Assembly: GCF_000495475.1 (NCBI RefSeq)
Contig: NZ_ASGZ01000053.1
Location: forward strand, 1 to 38,409
DNA: 38,409 bases
Reading direction: 5' to 3'
From: Candidatus Halobonum tyrrellensis G22
Lineage (GTDB): Archaea; Halobacteriota; Halobacteria; Halobacteriales; Haloferacaceae
Shown here piece after piece: positions 4,849 through 30,707 of the stretch. The notes under the pieces are model-generated. The model was not told the DNA's origin and made no database searches. It saw only the letters and a list, made by a program, of their open reading frames with translations. Within the stretch, counting starts at the first letter, position 1. The number at the start of each line of letters is the position of its first letter. The translations under genes were made by a program, and so were the position numbers.

Positions 4849-5199
4849 TTACCCCTCCCGTCGCCCGCCGTCCCCGTGGCTCCGGCGGTCCTCGTCGTTC
4901 TCGTCGTCCTCGTCGTTCTCGTCGTTCTCGTCGTCCGGTTCCTCCCGGTAGCGTATCTCGGCGACTTCGCGGCGCTCGCCGTCGACGTACTTGTAGCGGC
5001 GGCCCGGCTCCTCGTCGGCGGTCGTGCGGTGGGAGCCGTCACAGAACGGGTAGTCGTCGCTCAGCCCGCACAGACAGACCGCGACGTCGCCCTTCTCCGG
5101 GTCGAGGTCGTCCTCGTCGAGTTTGAGCGGCCCGGTCGCCTCGTGGGTCACTTCGCGGCGCGGCGCCGCCGCGCCGTCGTCGCTCGCGTCGTCCGACAC
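4849..5199 (-). CDS. CDGSH iron-sulfur domain protein
   Basis: The 116-residue product carries a single CDGSH motif at about 42-57 (CLCGLSDDYPFCDGSH), giving the C-x-C-x2-S-x3-P-x-C-D-G-S-H signature whose three Cys and one His hold a [2Fe-2S] cluster. An N-terminal EVTHEATGPLKLDEDDLDPEKGD strand region precedes it. The C-terminus ends in an Asp/Glu/Asn-rich tail with DEND-type repeats, probably disordered and halo-adaptive. The start is 9 nt after the stop of the upstream membrane-protein gene. A TTTTA on the minus strand at 5225-5229, inside that gene's last codons, would give an additional promoter 28 nt upstream. Redox partner is unknown. Confidence 0.9.
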   Translation of the reverse strand: MSDDASDDGAAAPRREVTHEATGPLKLDEDDLDPEKGDVAVCLCGLSDDYPFCDGSHRTTADEEPGRRYKYVDGERREVAEIRYREEPDDENDENDEDDENDEDRRSHGDGGRREG

Positions 5200-5208
5200 G
5201 GGAGCGCT

Positions 5209-5604
5209 TCACGCCGCGTCGTCGTAAAACCACGACTCCGGCGGGGGGACGACCCCCCACTGGACGCCCGCGAGCAGGCAGAAGTACGCCACCAGCCCGC
5301 CGAGGAGGGCGGCGACGACGGCGGGTCCCGCGAGGAGCGCGAGCGCCGGGCCGCCCGCGGCGACGAGTAGCGTCCCCGTCCACCGGACCGACCGCCGCCC
5401 CCACAGCGCCCGCGCGCGGTCGGGAGCGAGCGCCATCGCGAGTTCGAGCGCCAGCGCGCCCGCCGCGCCGGCCGCGAGCGGCCGCGGGCTGGCGACCCGG
5501 TCGAGCGGGTAGTCGCGCGCCCGCGCGAACGCGATCAGTGCGGCCGTCGCGCCGGCCGCGAGCAGGCCGTCGCGTTCGCGCGGGTCGACGTCGAGCGAGT
5601 TCAC
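5209..5604 (-). CDS. small multi-pass membrane protein, unknown function
   Basis: 131 residues with a short hydrophilic start (MNSLDVDPRERDGLLAAG), hydrophobic stretches at about 13-30, 44-62 and 76-115, and a C-terminal GVVPPPESWFYDDAA. I do not recognise a family beyond a haloarchaea-type conserved hypothetical. It starts 57 nt from the divergent potassium-channel gene and shares the AT-rich block at 5631-5639 with it. It sits directly upstream of the CDGSH gene with a 9-nt gap, so the two probably form a transcription unit. Confidence 0.7.
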   Translation of the reverse strand: MNSLDVDPRERDGLLAAGATAALIAFARARDYPLDRVASPRPLAAGAAGALALELAMALAPDRARALWGRRSVRWTGTLLVAAGGPALALLAGPAVVAALLGGLVAYFCLLAGVQWGVVPPPESWFYDDAA

Positions 5605-5630
5605 GACCGACCGGACGGCTCGAAGGGAGG

Positions 5631-5639
5631 TAATTTATT
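5631..5639. promoter_or_regulatory. shared bidirectional TATA element
   Basis: TAATTTATT is the only AT-rich block between two divergent starts. Its centre lies 27 nt from the GTG at 5662 (plus) and about 31 nt from the ATG at 5604 (minus). One nearly symmetric element could seat TBP for both directions. Confidence 0.6.
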
Positions 5640-5661
5640 CGCGGCCGTCACACCGCTCGAC

Positions 5662-7296
5662 GTGTTATCCGTCTCGCAGGCCACCCGGCGCATCCTGGCG
5701 TATCTCGGCGGTGCGCTCGGCGTGATGGTCGCGCTCGCGTTCGTCTACCAGTGGGGGATGGCGACGTTCGAGGGGGCCGACGTGGAGTACGTCCACGCGC
5801 TGTACGTCGTCGTCGAGACGTTCACGACGACCGGGTTCGGACTCGACGCCGACCGGTGGACCAGCGACCGGATGCTGGGGCTGATGGTCGTGTTCCAACT
5901 CGTCGGCGTCGGACTCATCTTCCTCGCGTTGCCCGCCATCGTCATCCCGCTGGTGGGGGAGGCGCTGTCGTCGTCGCCGCCGGCGGGGTCGGAGCTGACC
6001 GACCACGTCGTGCTCTGTTCGTTCACGCCGCGCGGCGAGACGCTGGTGCGGGAACTCGACGCGCGCGACCAGCCGTACGTCGTGGTCGAACCCGACCGCG
6101 AGCGGGCGGGCGAACTCGCGGCCGACCACGACGTGGTCCACGGCGACCCCGAGGACGTGGAGACGCTCCGCGCCGCGAACGTGGGGGCGGCGCGGGGGCT
6201 GGTCGCCGACGCCGACGACGAGACCAACGCGAGCATCATCCTCTCCGCCCGGGAGGTGGCGGACGACGCTCTCCACGTCGTCAGTCTCGTCGAGGAGGAG
6301 TCGGTCGCCGACTACCACCGCTACGCGGGCGCCGACGAGGTGCTCTCGCCCCGGCGCATCCTCGGCGAGAGCCTGGGCGCGAAGGCGACGACGACGGTGG
6401 CGGACGAACTCGGCGAGGGGGTCGAGATCGGCGAGGACGTCCAGATCGCGGAACTGCTCGTCCACCACGGCAGCCCGCTGGTCGGCCGGACCGTCGCCGA
6501 GTGCCGGATCGGCGAGCGCACCGGCGCGAACATCATCGGGGCGTGGGTGAACGGCCGGTTCGAGTCGCCGCCCGCGCCCACCCGCGTGCTCGACGAACAC
6601 ACCGTCGTCCTGGTCGTCGGCCGGGAGCCGCAACTGGAGGCGCTCAAGCGGCTCACGCTCTCGGAGACCCGGCGACACCGCCGCGGCCCGGTGATCGTGG
6701 CGGGCTACGGCGTCGTGGGGCGGTCGGTGGCGGGCGAACTCGCCGCCAGCGAGGACACCGTCGTCGTCGACCTGACCGAGAAACCCGGCGTCGACGTGGT
6801 CGGCGACGCCACCGACCGGCGGACGCTGGAGGAGGCGGGCATCGACGAGGCGCGCACCGTCGTGCTCGCGCTCGGGTCGGACACGACCACCGTCTTCGCC
6901 ACGCTCGCGGTCCGGCAGGTCGCGCCCGACGTCGAGGTGATCGCGCGCGCCAACGACGACGAGACGGTGCCGAAGCTCTACCGCGCGGGCGCCGAGTACG
7001 TCCTCGCGCTCTCGACCGTCTCCGGCCGGATGCTCGCGTCCCGCTTGCTCGACGAGGAGGTGCTCCGCCCGGAGACGCAGATCGAACTCGTGCGGACGCG
7101 CGCGCCGAACCTCCGCGGCGAGACGCTCGCCGACGCCGACGTGCGCGCGCGCACCGGCTGTACCGTCATCGCGGTCGAACGGAACGGCGAGGTGGTGACG
7201 GACGTCGGTCCCGACACGACGGTCCGACCGGACGACACCCTGGTGGTCGCGGGCACCGACGGCGCCGTCGCGCGGTTCACCGAGCGGTTCACGTAG
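5662..7296 (+). CDS. 2TM potassium channel with duplicated RCK (TrkA-N/TrkA-C) domains
   Basis: The product has 544 residues. TM1 spans about 11-33, the pore helix and filter about 45-61 (TFTTTGFGLD in place of the textbook TVGYGD) and TM2 about 71-98. Then come TrkA-N (~114-230), TrkA-C (~255-325), a second TrkA-N (~343-455) and a second TrkA-C (~460-544). The second Rossmann fold has an intact GYGVVGRS nucleotide loop. The first reads CSFTPRGET and lacks the glycine pattern, so ligand binding is probably uneven between the two modules. This layout resembles calcium- or nucleotide-gated K+ channels (MthK/BK-like gating ring). Transport of K+ suits a salt-in halophile. The GTG start is set by the AT block 27 nt upstream. 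Confidence 0.88.
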   Translation: MLSVSQATRRILAYLGGALGVMVALAFVYQWGMATFEGADVEYVHALYVVVETFTTTGFGLDADRWTSDRMLGLMVVFQLVGVGLIFLALPAIVIPLVGEALSSSPPAGSELTDHVVLCSFTPRGETLVRELDARDQPYVVVEPDRERAGELAADHDVVHGDPEDVETLRAANVGAARGLVADADDETNASIILSAREVADDALHVVSLVEEESVADYHRYAGADEVLSPRRILGESLGAKATTTVADELGEGVEIGEDVQIAELLVHHGSPLVGRTVAECRIGERTGANIIGAWVNGRFESPPAPTRVLDEHTVVLVVGREPQLEALKRLTLSETRRHRRGPVIVAGYGVVGRSVAGELAASEDTVVVDLTEKPGVDVVGDATDRRTLEEAGIDEARTVVLALGSDTTTVFATLAVRQVAPDVEVIARANDDETVPKLYRAGAEYVLALSTVSGRMLASRLLDEEVLRPETQIELVRTRAPNLRGETLADADVRARTGCTVIAVERNGEVVTDVGPDTTVRPDDTLVVAGTDGAVARFTERFT

Positions 7297-28487: not shown

Positions 28488-28511
28488 GACGGGGTCGCTT
28501 ATCCACCCGTA

Positions 28512-28970
28512 ATGCCGGTCGAAGCGACCAGTGCTGGAGCCATCCTCTTCCGCGACACCCGCGACCGCAGGGAGTACCTACTCCTGAAGAGCCGACCCGG
28601 GGACTGGGAGTTCCCGAAAGGGGGCGTCGAGGGGGAAGAGGAGCTTCAGCAGACGGCGATCAGGGAAGTACAGGAAGAAGCCGGAATAGCCGAGTTCAGA
28701 CTCATCGACGGGTTCCGCGAGGAGTACAACTACGTGTTCGAGGCCGGGGGGAACACCATCCACAAGACGGTCCACCTGTTCATCGCCCACTCGTTCGAGG
28801 CGAGCGCGGAGCTGTCGAACGAGCACCGCGACCTCCAGTGGCGCGACTACGAGCAGGCGCTCAACACCATCACCCAGGACGGCCCGCGCGACATCCTCCG
28901 GGAGGCGCACGACTACCTCGACGCGTTGGACGCCGACGAGAACTACCTCCTCGGCCAGCAGTCGGGCTGA
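28512..28970 (+). CDS. Nudix hydrolase, diadenosine-tetraphosphatase-like
   Basis: 152 residues. The Nudix box fits G-x5-E-x7-REV-x-EE-x-GI exactly, beginning with the first Gly of PKGGVEGEE (~35) and ending EEAGIAE. It is preceded by YLLLKSRPGDWEFPKG, typical of Ap4A hydrolases, and followed by INxEHRDLQW-like SNEHRDLQWRDYEQA. These enzymes hydrolyse nucleoside diphosphates linked to other groups, often alarmone-like Ap4A, using Mg2+. Base usage in the first half is less GC-rich than in the surroundings. A strong hairpin follows 39 nt after the stop. Confidence 0.92.
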   Translation: MPVEATSAGAILFRDTRDRREYLLLKSRPGDWEFPKGGVEGEEELQQTAIREVQEEAGIAEFRLIDGFREEYNYVFEAGGNTIHKTVHLFIAHSFEASAELSNEHRDLQWRDYEQALNTITQDGPRDILREAHDYLDALDADENYLLGQQSG

Positions 28971-29138: not shown

Positions 29139-30176
29139 GTGTACTCGGGCGCGGGCGACAGCGAGTTCTCGTTCGAGCTGTCGGTGTGTCGGTGGGCCGA
29201 ACTCGCGTGGCACCCCGTCGCGGGCGACCGGCCGGCCGTCGTCGCGCGCCAACTCGGCACGCGCGAGCGCCGCTGGGACACGGTGGTGCTGGAGGTCGAC
29301 CCCGGCGCGTTCGCCGCCCGTCGCCGCCTCGGCGAGCGGGGACTCGACCGCGACCTCCTGCGGGTGGTCCGCGGCGCGCCCGCCGACTACGAGTGGTACC
29401 GCGACGCGCTCGACGATCCGGGGTTCCCGTGGCGGTACGTCCGCGAGGCGGTCCACCGCGCCGCCGACCGCGGGCTGGTCGAGACGCGGACGGGCGCGAA
29501 CGGCCGCGTCGAGTTCCGCCGGCAGCCCGAGGACCCGCCGTACCCCGACTGGGTCGAACGGGTCGTCGTCGTCGAGAACAAACCCGACCTCGACGCGAGC
29601 GCCGCGAGCGCGCTCGCGGGCCAGTTGCGCCACGACGTCGACGCGGGGTTCGCCGACGAGGTGTGGCTGGCGACCGGCGCGACGGGGCGGCGGGTGTCGC
29701 CCGCGCTCTTGGAAGACACGCCGGTCGAGGCGGGCGTACTGGAGTTCGACTTCTCCGCGGGCGTCGACGCGGGCGCCGCGGAGGTGGTGTGGGGCCCGGC
29801 GCGACTCGACGCCGACGCCGACCCGGACCGACGGCTCGAACTCGCCGAGCGGGCGTACGGGACGGGCTGGCGCGACTTCCGGGAGACGATGCGCCCCGAC
29901 TGCCGGTCGTTCTCGCTCCGGCGGGCGGGGCGGGCGCTACTCCCCCACTGCGGGGCGAAGGGGCGTCACCAGACCGCCGCGGAGTGTTCCGGCTCCTGTC
30001 GGCAGTTCGCGCCCGAGCCGCCGGGCTGGCGGGTCGGCGGGTGGCCCGTCGAGGGGGGACCGGGGAAGGGGGTCCGGGCGCTGTTGGCGCGGCGGCGCGA
30101 GCGCGAGCGTGACCGCGCCGCCGCGGACGGAGGTGCGGGCGACGCCGGGGAGTCGGCCGCGGGGCGGTCGGACTGA
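29139..30176 (+). CDS. DUF5787 protein, candidate Fe-S PD-(D/E)XK nuclease
   Basis: 345 residues from GTG (VYSGAGDSEFSFELSVCRWAEL). Family by recall: DUF5787, function unknown. Several features fit a restriction-endonuclease-like nuclease: an N-terminal helix with Glu and Cys17, a strand WDTVVLEVD (46-54), YPDWVERVVVVENK with Pro136-Asp137 and E146-x-K148, then a helix with Gln162 (GQLRHD) and strand DEVWLATG. Cys255, 271, 283 and 287 cluster near the C-terminus (PDCRSF, PHCGAK, AECSGSC). One N-terminal plus several C-terminal cysteines is the Cas4/AddB-type Fe-S layout. The C-terminus ends in an Arg/Glu-rich, then Gly/Asp-rich tail. GCTATC at 29110-29115 lies 27 nt upstream, supporting a leaderless GTG start. 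The nuclease idea is my inference. Confidence 0.8.
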   Translation: MYSGAGDSEFSFELSVCRWAELAWHPVAGDRPAVVARQLGTRERRWDTVVLEVDPGAFAARRRLGERGLDRDLLRVVRGAPADYEWYRDALDDPGFPWRYVREAVHRAADRGLVETRTGANGRVEFRRQPEDPPYPDWVERVVVVENKPDLDASAASALAGQLRHDVDAGFADEVWLATGATGRRVSPALLEDTPVEAGVLEFDFSAGVDAGAAEVVWGPARLDADADPDRRLELAERAYGTGWRDFRETMRPDCRSFSLRRAGRALLPHCGAKGRHQTAAECSGSCRQFAPEPPGWRVGGWPVEGGPGKGVRALLARRRERERDRAAADGGAGDAGESAAGRSD

Positions 30177-30203: not shown

Positions 30204-30707
30204 CTACTCGCTGACTTCCACGTCGACGGCGTCGCGGTCGACCGACAGCCGGAACGTCGGGACGGTGCGGTACTCCACCTCGACGACGCCCTTCCGGCGG
30301 AGGCTCTGGAGCGCCTGCCGGACGTCCTCGGCCTCGGGGTCGGCGCCGAACCGGTCGCGCACCTTGTGGAGCACCGACACCACGGACTCGGAGCGCTCGT
30401 CGGGACCGGGCGCGACGGCGAACACCTGCGCGTGGAGTTCGGGCACCCGGATCCGGTCGGGGACGCCGCCCCCGTCGCCGTCGTCCTCGACGCCGGGGTC
30501 GACGCCCGTGCGGTCCGCCGCCTCGCTCGTCGCGCGGATGAGGCTGTTGTCGTCGCGGTAGTAGTAGTCCGAGAGGTGGGTCTCGAGGTACTGGTGGACC
30601 TCGCTCCCGCCCTCCATCCCCCACCGCTCTTGGAGTTCGGAGTTCTTGGTCGGCTGGAGGCGGACGACGTCCGCGAGGCGGTCCAACTCCTCGTCGGTGA
30701 GGCTCAT
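30204..30707 (-). CDS. DUF5797 family protein (helix-turn-helix-like)
   Basis: 167 residues. MSLTDEELDRLADVVRLQPTK starts a conserved N-terminal segment followed by NSELQERWGM, VHQYLETHLSDYYYRDDNSL and IRATSEAA, a pattern resembling a winged helix. The second half (SVLHKVRDRFGADP, DVRQALQSLRRKGVVEVEYRT) looks like a second helical/wing unit. Family by recall is haloarchaeal DUF5797; DNA binding is a reasonable guess, not shown. A TATTT-like AT element at 30730-30736 lies ~26 nt upstream of the ATG. Convergent with the DUF5787 gene (27-nt gap). Confidence 0.8.
   Translation of the reverse strand: MSLTDEELDRLADVVRLQPTKNSELQERWGMEGGSEVHQYLETHLSDYYYRDDNSLIRATSEAADRTGVDPGVEDDGDGGGVPDRIRVPELHAQVFAVAPGPDERSESVVSVLHKVRDRFGADPEAEDVRQALQSLRRKGVVEVEYRTVPTFRLSVDRDAVDVEVSE

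Follow-up and report, generated by a model that had tools for sequence, protein, structure and literature searches.

BsaWI, PaqCI and EndoMS are nucleases of the PD-(D/E)XK superfamily. SfsA, XisH and DUF1052 (pfam06319, the MmcB family) belong to the same superfamily, within which sequence similarity is very low (PMC1189080). Cas4 binds a 4Fe-4S cluster through one N-terminal and three C-terminal cysteines, and in a related nuclease zinc can stand in for the Fe-S cluster (PMC3466216). An earlier note on the contig analysed here (the window, 38,409 nucleotides from Candidatus Halobonum tyrrellensis G22) proposed that a DUF5787 protein encoded on it is a nuclease of the Cas4/AddB/Dna2 Fe-S group. 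By computation, the nuclease part of this idea is well supported through the predicted fold and residue conservation, whereas membership of the Fe-S group is not. We consider DUF5787 a nuclease of the PD-(D/E)XK superfamily and, most likely, a chromosomal, Mg2+/Mn2+-dependent DNase in housekeeping genome maintenance, with a probability of roughly 0.7. Computation directly established the gene, its family, the predicted fold order, the residue invariance, the distribution and the two ancient paralogues; catalysis, the metals, a DNA substrate and a role in repair are what we infer.

The product of the gene (Table 1) matched PF19100 (DUF5787) with a score of 323 bits, and in a Pfam search up to an E-value of 1 no other family was matched, including the MmcB-like family PF06319. 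Pfam labels PF19100 as a family of unknown function, and our literature search found no paper naming DUF5787. The GTG start is supported by homologues, 43 of 46 of which give their best alignment when started from a GTG at the corresponding point; this sharing of GTG is unusually consistent. The protein has cysteines at positions 17, 255, 271, 283 and 287 and nowhere else. These residues, along with D47, E52, D54, P136, D137, E146, N147, K148, Q162, D173 and E174, are all located where the earlier note had placed them.

Table 1. Positions in the window of the DUF5787 gene, its predicted structural elements and its neighbours.
Feature	Position	Strand	Basis
NUDIX hydrolase, directly upstream of DUF5787 A on the same strand	28500..28970	+	PF00293, E 1.2e-17; neighbour in 48/64 A loci
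DUF5787 protein, paralogue A, 345 aa, GTG start	29139..30176	+	Translation (open frame); PF19100, E 2.5e-96; homologue starts agree
First helix (alpha-A), residues 9-23, with invariant E9, E13 and E21 and near-invariant C17	29163..29207	+	Model, conservation
Second strand, residues 45-53, with putative catalytic D47 (codon 29277-29279); invariant R44 just before	29271..29297	+	Model, conservation
Predicted inserted winged-helix domain, residues 65-136	29331..29546	+	Winged-helix structural matches, model
Third strand, residues 139-148, ending in E146-N-K148 (codons 29574-29582)	29553..29582	+	Model, conservation
Helix alpha-B, residues 153-169, with invariant Q162 and D166	29595..29645	+	Model, both paralogues
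Fourth strand, residues 174-180 (EVWLATG), closing the predicted core	29658..29678	+	Model
Candidate four-Cys metal site, residues 255-287 (C255-x15-C271-x11-C283-x3-C287)	29901..29999	+	Cys invariance (128/128), spacing
DUF5797 protein, convergent downstream neighbour	30204..30707	-	PF19110, E 3.7e-81; family seen in 33/64 A loci

An AlphaFold2 model of the protein (mean pLDDT 83, pTM 0.75), built on an alignment of 47 sequences from one clade, contains the α-β-β-β-α-β order that the earlier note had named as a check on its proposal. Helix 9-23 and two strands (33-40, 45-53) precede an insert, behind which strand 139-147, helix 153-169 and strand 174-180 complete the α-β-β-[insert]-β-α-β order of PD-(D/E)XK nucleases. 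In this model the second strand carries D47 and the third ends in E146-x-K148. The insert, which comprises helices 71-78, 87-90 and 98-110 and a hairpin (114-118/124-128), aligned to many winged-helix PDB chains with Z scores of 7-8.6 and is placed between D47 and E146, hence between the second and third core strands. This domain, like the second paralogue, was missing from the earlier note. Apart from winged-helix chains, the structural matches of the model were mostly PD-(D/E)XK superfamily members (Z 6.9-11.9). The matches covering the core were 3dnx (Z 11.9), PaqCI (11.0 and 10.2), XisH (9.1 and 9.0), AF2093 (8.5), SfsA (8.0), BsaWI (7.2) and EndoMS (6.9). The best of them, 3dnx, which we take to be a DUF1052/MmcB-like (PF06319) protein, aligned over 144 residues with an rmsd of 4.6, and MmcB-type proteins also matched the model in a viral structure library, with weak E-values from Foldseek itself. 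Because the Foldseek E-values against the PDB were likewise weak (best 0.024), the case for a nuclease rests on how the order of the fold, several independent structural matches and the invariant residues agree, and no single score carries it. Sequence and profile searches of solved structures with DUF5787 returned chance matches only and no solved nuclease. In hhalign comparisons with profiles of Cas4, Hjc, NucS and SfsA, with or without the winged-helix insert, the probability stayed below 1% and did not exceed that of unrelated controls, a null result that is common in the PD-(D/E)XK superfamily, with its very low sequence similarity.

We analysed residue conservation in a joint alignment of 128 proteins, 96 of the window type (A) and 32 of the paralogue type (B). 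Of 261 columns that could be compared, 40 show no variation in either type: in the N-terminal part E9, E13, E21, R37, Q38, R44, D47 and R61; in the middle Y135, P136, W138, E146-N-K148-P-D-L, Q162, D166 and D173; and in the C-terminal part E237-R238, G243-W-R245, C255, C271, C283, C287 and R298. D47 is kept in all 94 A proteins covering that position and in all 32 B proteins, E146 in 128/128 and K148 in 127/128, the exception being one B protein with K148N. For the 40 invariant columns to include D47, E146, K148 and every one of the four C-terminal cysteines, the hypergeometric P is about 1e-6 (P < 1e-5 when three candidate aspartates are allowed for); judged from the aligned sequences, the invariance of these residues is more than chance. 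Other residues singled out in the earlier note did not hold up: D54 is glycine in 31/32 B proteins, E52 is not kept in B, D137 varies (D/E/G/A) and C17 is near-invariant rather than invariant. Since D137 varies and sits outside the second strand, the 'PD' at 136-137, which that note had pointed out ahead of E146-N-K148, is rejected as catalytic, and the candidate catalytic aspartate is D47, together with E146-x-K148. The fold order, the superfamily matches and the retention of D47, E146 and K148 across two ancient paralogues argue for a PD-(D/E)XK nuclease core, as the earlier note had predicted.

DUF5787 was matched in 193 of 194 Halobacteria genomes, including Haloferax volcanii, and nearly all of them carry two copies. 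The sole genome without it belongs to the same order as the window's genome, is 1.9 Mb long and 98% complete; among the samples searched, it also lacks NucS and contains Hjc. In a wider sample of the phylum, no genome outside Halobacteria exceeded the family cut-off. The only match from such a genome, located inside a methionyl-tRNA synthetase and below the cut-off, was rejected as DUF5787. The genome of the window carries copy A in the window and copy B on another contig (our locus L081, C60:1900-12700, positions 4896-5885, minus strand), with 105 of 291 aligned residues identical (36%). In a tree of 127 proteins, rooted at its midpoint, A and B form two cleanly separated halves, and this division is fully supported. 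Because the split is clean and each half spans many haloarchaeal families, the duplication appears most simply to predate the diversification of Halobacteria. The viral contigs searched contained no relative, PADLOC and PHROG gave no match, and the plasmid collection contained the family in one record alone, an 828-kb Natronorubrum replicon. Given the lack of viral relatives and this single plasmid record, the DUF5787 family is essentially chromosomal.

A gap of 168 bp separates the NUDIX gene from the DUF5787 gene downstream, and the two may form an operon. DUF5797 is a further family of unknown function, whose match to a TrmB-type helix-turn-helix is weak and below threshold. At A loci, a uS10-like gene and DUF5797 lie nearby on the opposite strand, and in other genomes the B loci lie near genes for eIF2-gamma, Rpb7 and a PIN-domain protein (PIN_9), with the conserved neighbours again mostly on the opposite strand. 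Neither the A neighbourhood (NUDIX, uS10-like, DUF5797) nor the B neighbourhood (eIF2-gamma, Rpb7, PIN) names repair or any other pathway.

The C-terminal cysteines are each present in 128/128 proteins, mostly spaced x12-16, x11-12 and x3, and the model shows a hairpin between the first two. They fit a self-contained candidate metal site for zinc or Fe-S. In one reading they bind Zn(Cys)4 in a structural or nucleic-acid-binding finger that is independent of C17. This is our preferred explanation with the metal named, with which its likelihood overlaps, and we hold it at slightly less than even odds. It draws on the presence of exactly four invariant cysteines in a short stretch around that hairpin, and the DUF5787 profile cross-matched the Cys-rich, normally zinc-binding stretch of methionyl-tRNA synthetase; on the other hand, single-Cys and Cx3C spacing is no usual zinc-ribbon pattern, and the domain modelled alone matched no solved structure at a Z score of 2 or more, although that model is weak (pLDDT 62) and for this reason supports no conclusion. 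We regard as unlikely a Cas4/AddB/Dna2-like arrangement, in which a 4Fe-4S cluster would staple C17 to the C-terminal cysteines. The place of C17 in the first helix, where by sequence the N-terminal cysteine of haloarchaeal Cas4 also appears to lie, its presence in 121/128 proteins, the invariant C-terminal cysteines and the division of cysteines in Cas4 itself would suit such a staple. However, C17 is replaced by serine in five proteins and by alanine in a sixth (a further seeming serine comes from a truncated, misaligned row), at no fewer than five separate places on the tree, which speaks against its role as a Cas4-type ligand. The motif CxxCx5C, present in 20/20 haloarchaeal Cas4 proteins, occurs in 0/128 DUF5787 proteins, and the C-terminal cysteines number four instead of three, enough by themselves for a metal site; zinc, moreover, can take the place of Fe-S in a related nuclease. 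The profile comparison likewise gave haloarchaeal Cas4 no better result than the negative controls; Cas4, AddB and Dna2 were also absent from the list of structural matches, an absence that does not exclude them. Because CxxCx5C is lacking, the four cysteines are differently spaced and C17 can be lost, a Cas4-type Fe-S staple through C17 is not supported, and neither is the group membership suggested in the earlier note.

The fold could also have been kept in a non-catalytic protein that binds DNA or has a regulatory role, given that the winged helix could suffice for DNA binding, that no activity is known and that one B protein carries K148N. We think this improbable: residues of a catalytic triad normally drift once catalysis is lost, but here virtually all 128 proteins, from paralogues only 36% identical in the window's genome, retain the complete triad. 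Less probable still is an enzyme that cuts RNA or acts in restriction-type defence. The type IIS enzyme PaqCI is among the top structural matches and the B copies have translation genes in their vicinity, but the conserved neighbours of B are mostly on the opposite strand, no methylase partner occurs among the conserved neighbours, and the distribution is not patchy and without a PADLOC match. In the nuclease reading that we prefer, D47 and E146 would be the ligands of the catalytic metal and K148 the residue activating the attacking water, with E13 and Q162 as the remaining members of the active site. The winged helix, set between strands two and three, would clamp onto double-stranded DNA, and C255, C271, C283 and C287 would bind the metal about which the C-terminal domain folds.

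More tentatively, and at somewhat less than an even chance, DUF5787 may found a separate, Halobacteria-specific PD-(D/E)XK family that has a winged helix inside its core, is completed by a C-terminal Cys4 metal site and was duplicated before the class diversified, with both copies being core genome-maintenance enzymes. If the proteins are active, nearly every sampled haloarchaeon would have two uncharacterised nucleases of one family, both strictly conserved. The proposal, if true, would bring to light a nuclease whose core contains a DNA-binding module, and would account for a clade-wide family of unknown function. As Haloferax volcanii has the family and good genetics, its role is directly testable.

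Among known systems, MmcB-like/DUF1052 proteins (PF06319) share the PD-(D/E)XK core and, with 3dnx taken as one of them, supply the best structural match. In contrast to DUF5787, they are about 160 residues long and occur almost exclusively in Proteobacteria, and we detected no sequence similarity between the two; to our knowledge, they have neither an inserted winged helix nor a Cys4 domain. A phage protein annotated as 'MmcB family' did not match PF06319. Cas4 (PF01930), AddB and Dna2 resemble DUF5787 in superfamily, in the cysteine on the first helix and in a C-terminal cysteine cluster; DUF5787 departs from Cas4 in its motif, in the number of C-terminal cysteines, in a dispensable N-terminal cysteine and in profile. 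XisH (the fdxN excision controlling factor) and SfsA have the same core, and we know of no winged helix between the second and third strands in either; their distribution also differs, SfsA being found in 1/15 Halobacteria. PaqCI, a type IIS restriction endonuclease, has a nuclease core that aligns over 153 residues at Z 11.0, but its chains of 491-506 residues include a target-recognition part, whereas DUF5787 comes without a methylase partner and without a mobile distribution.
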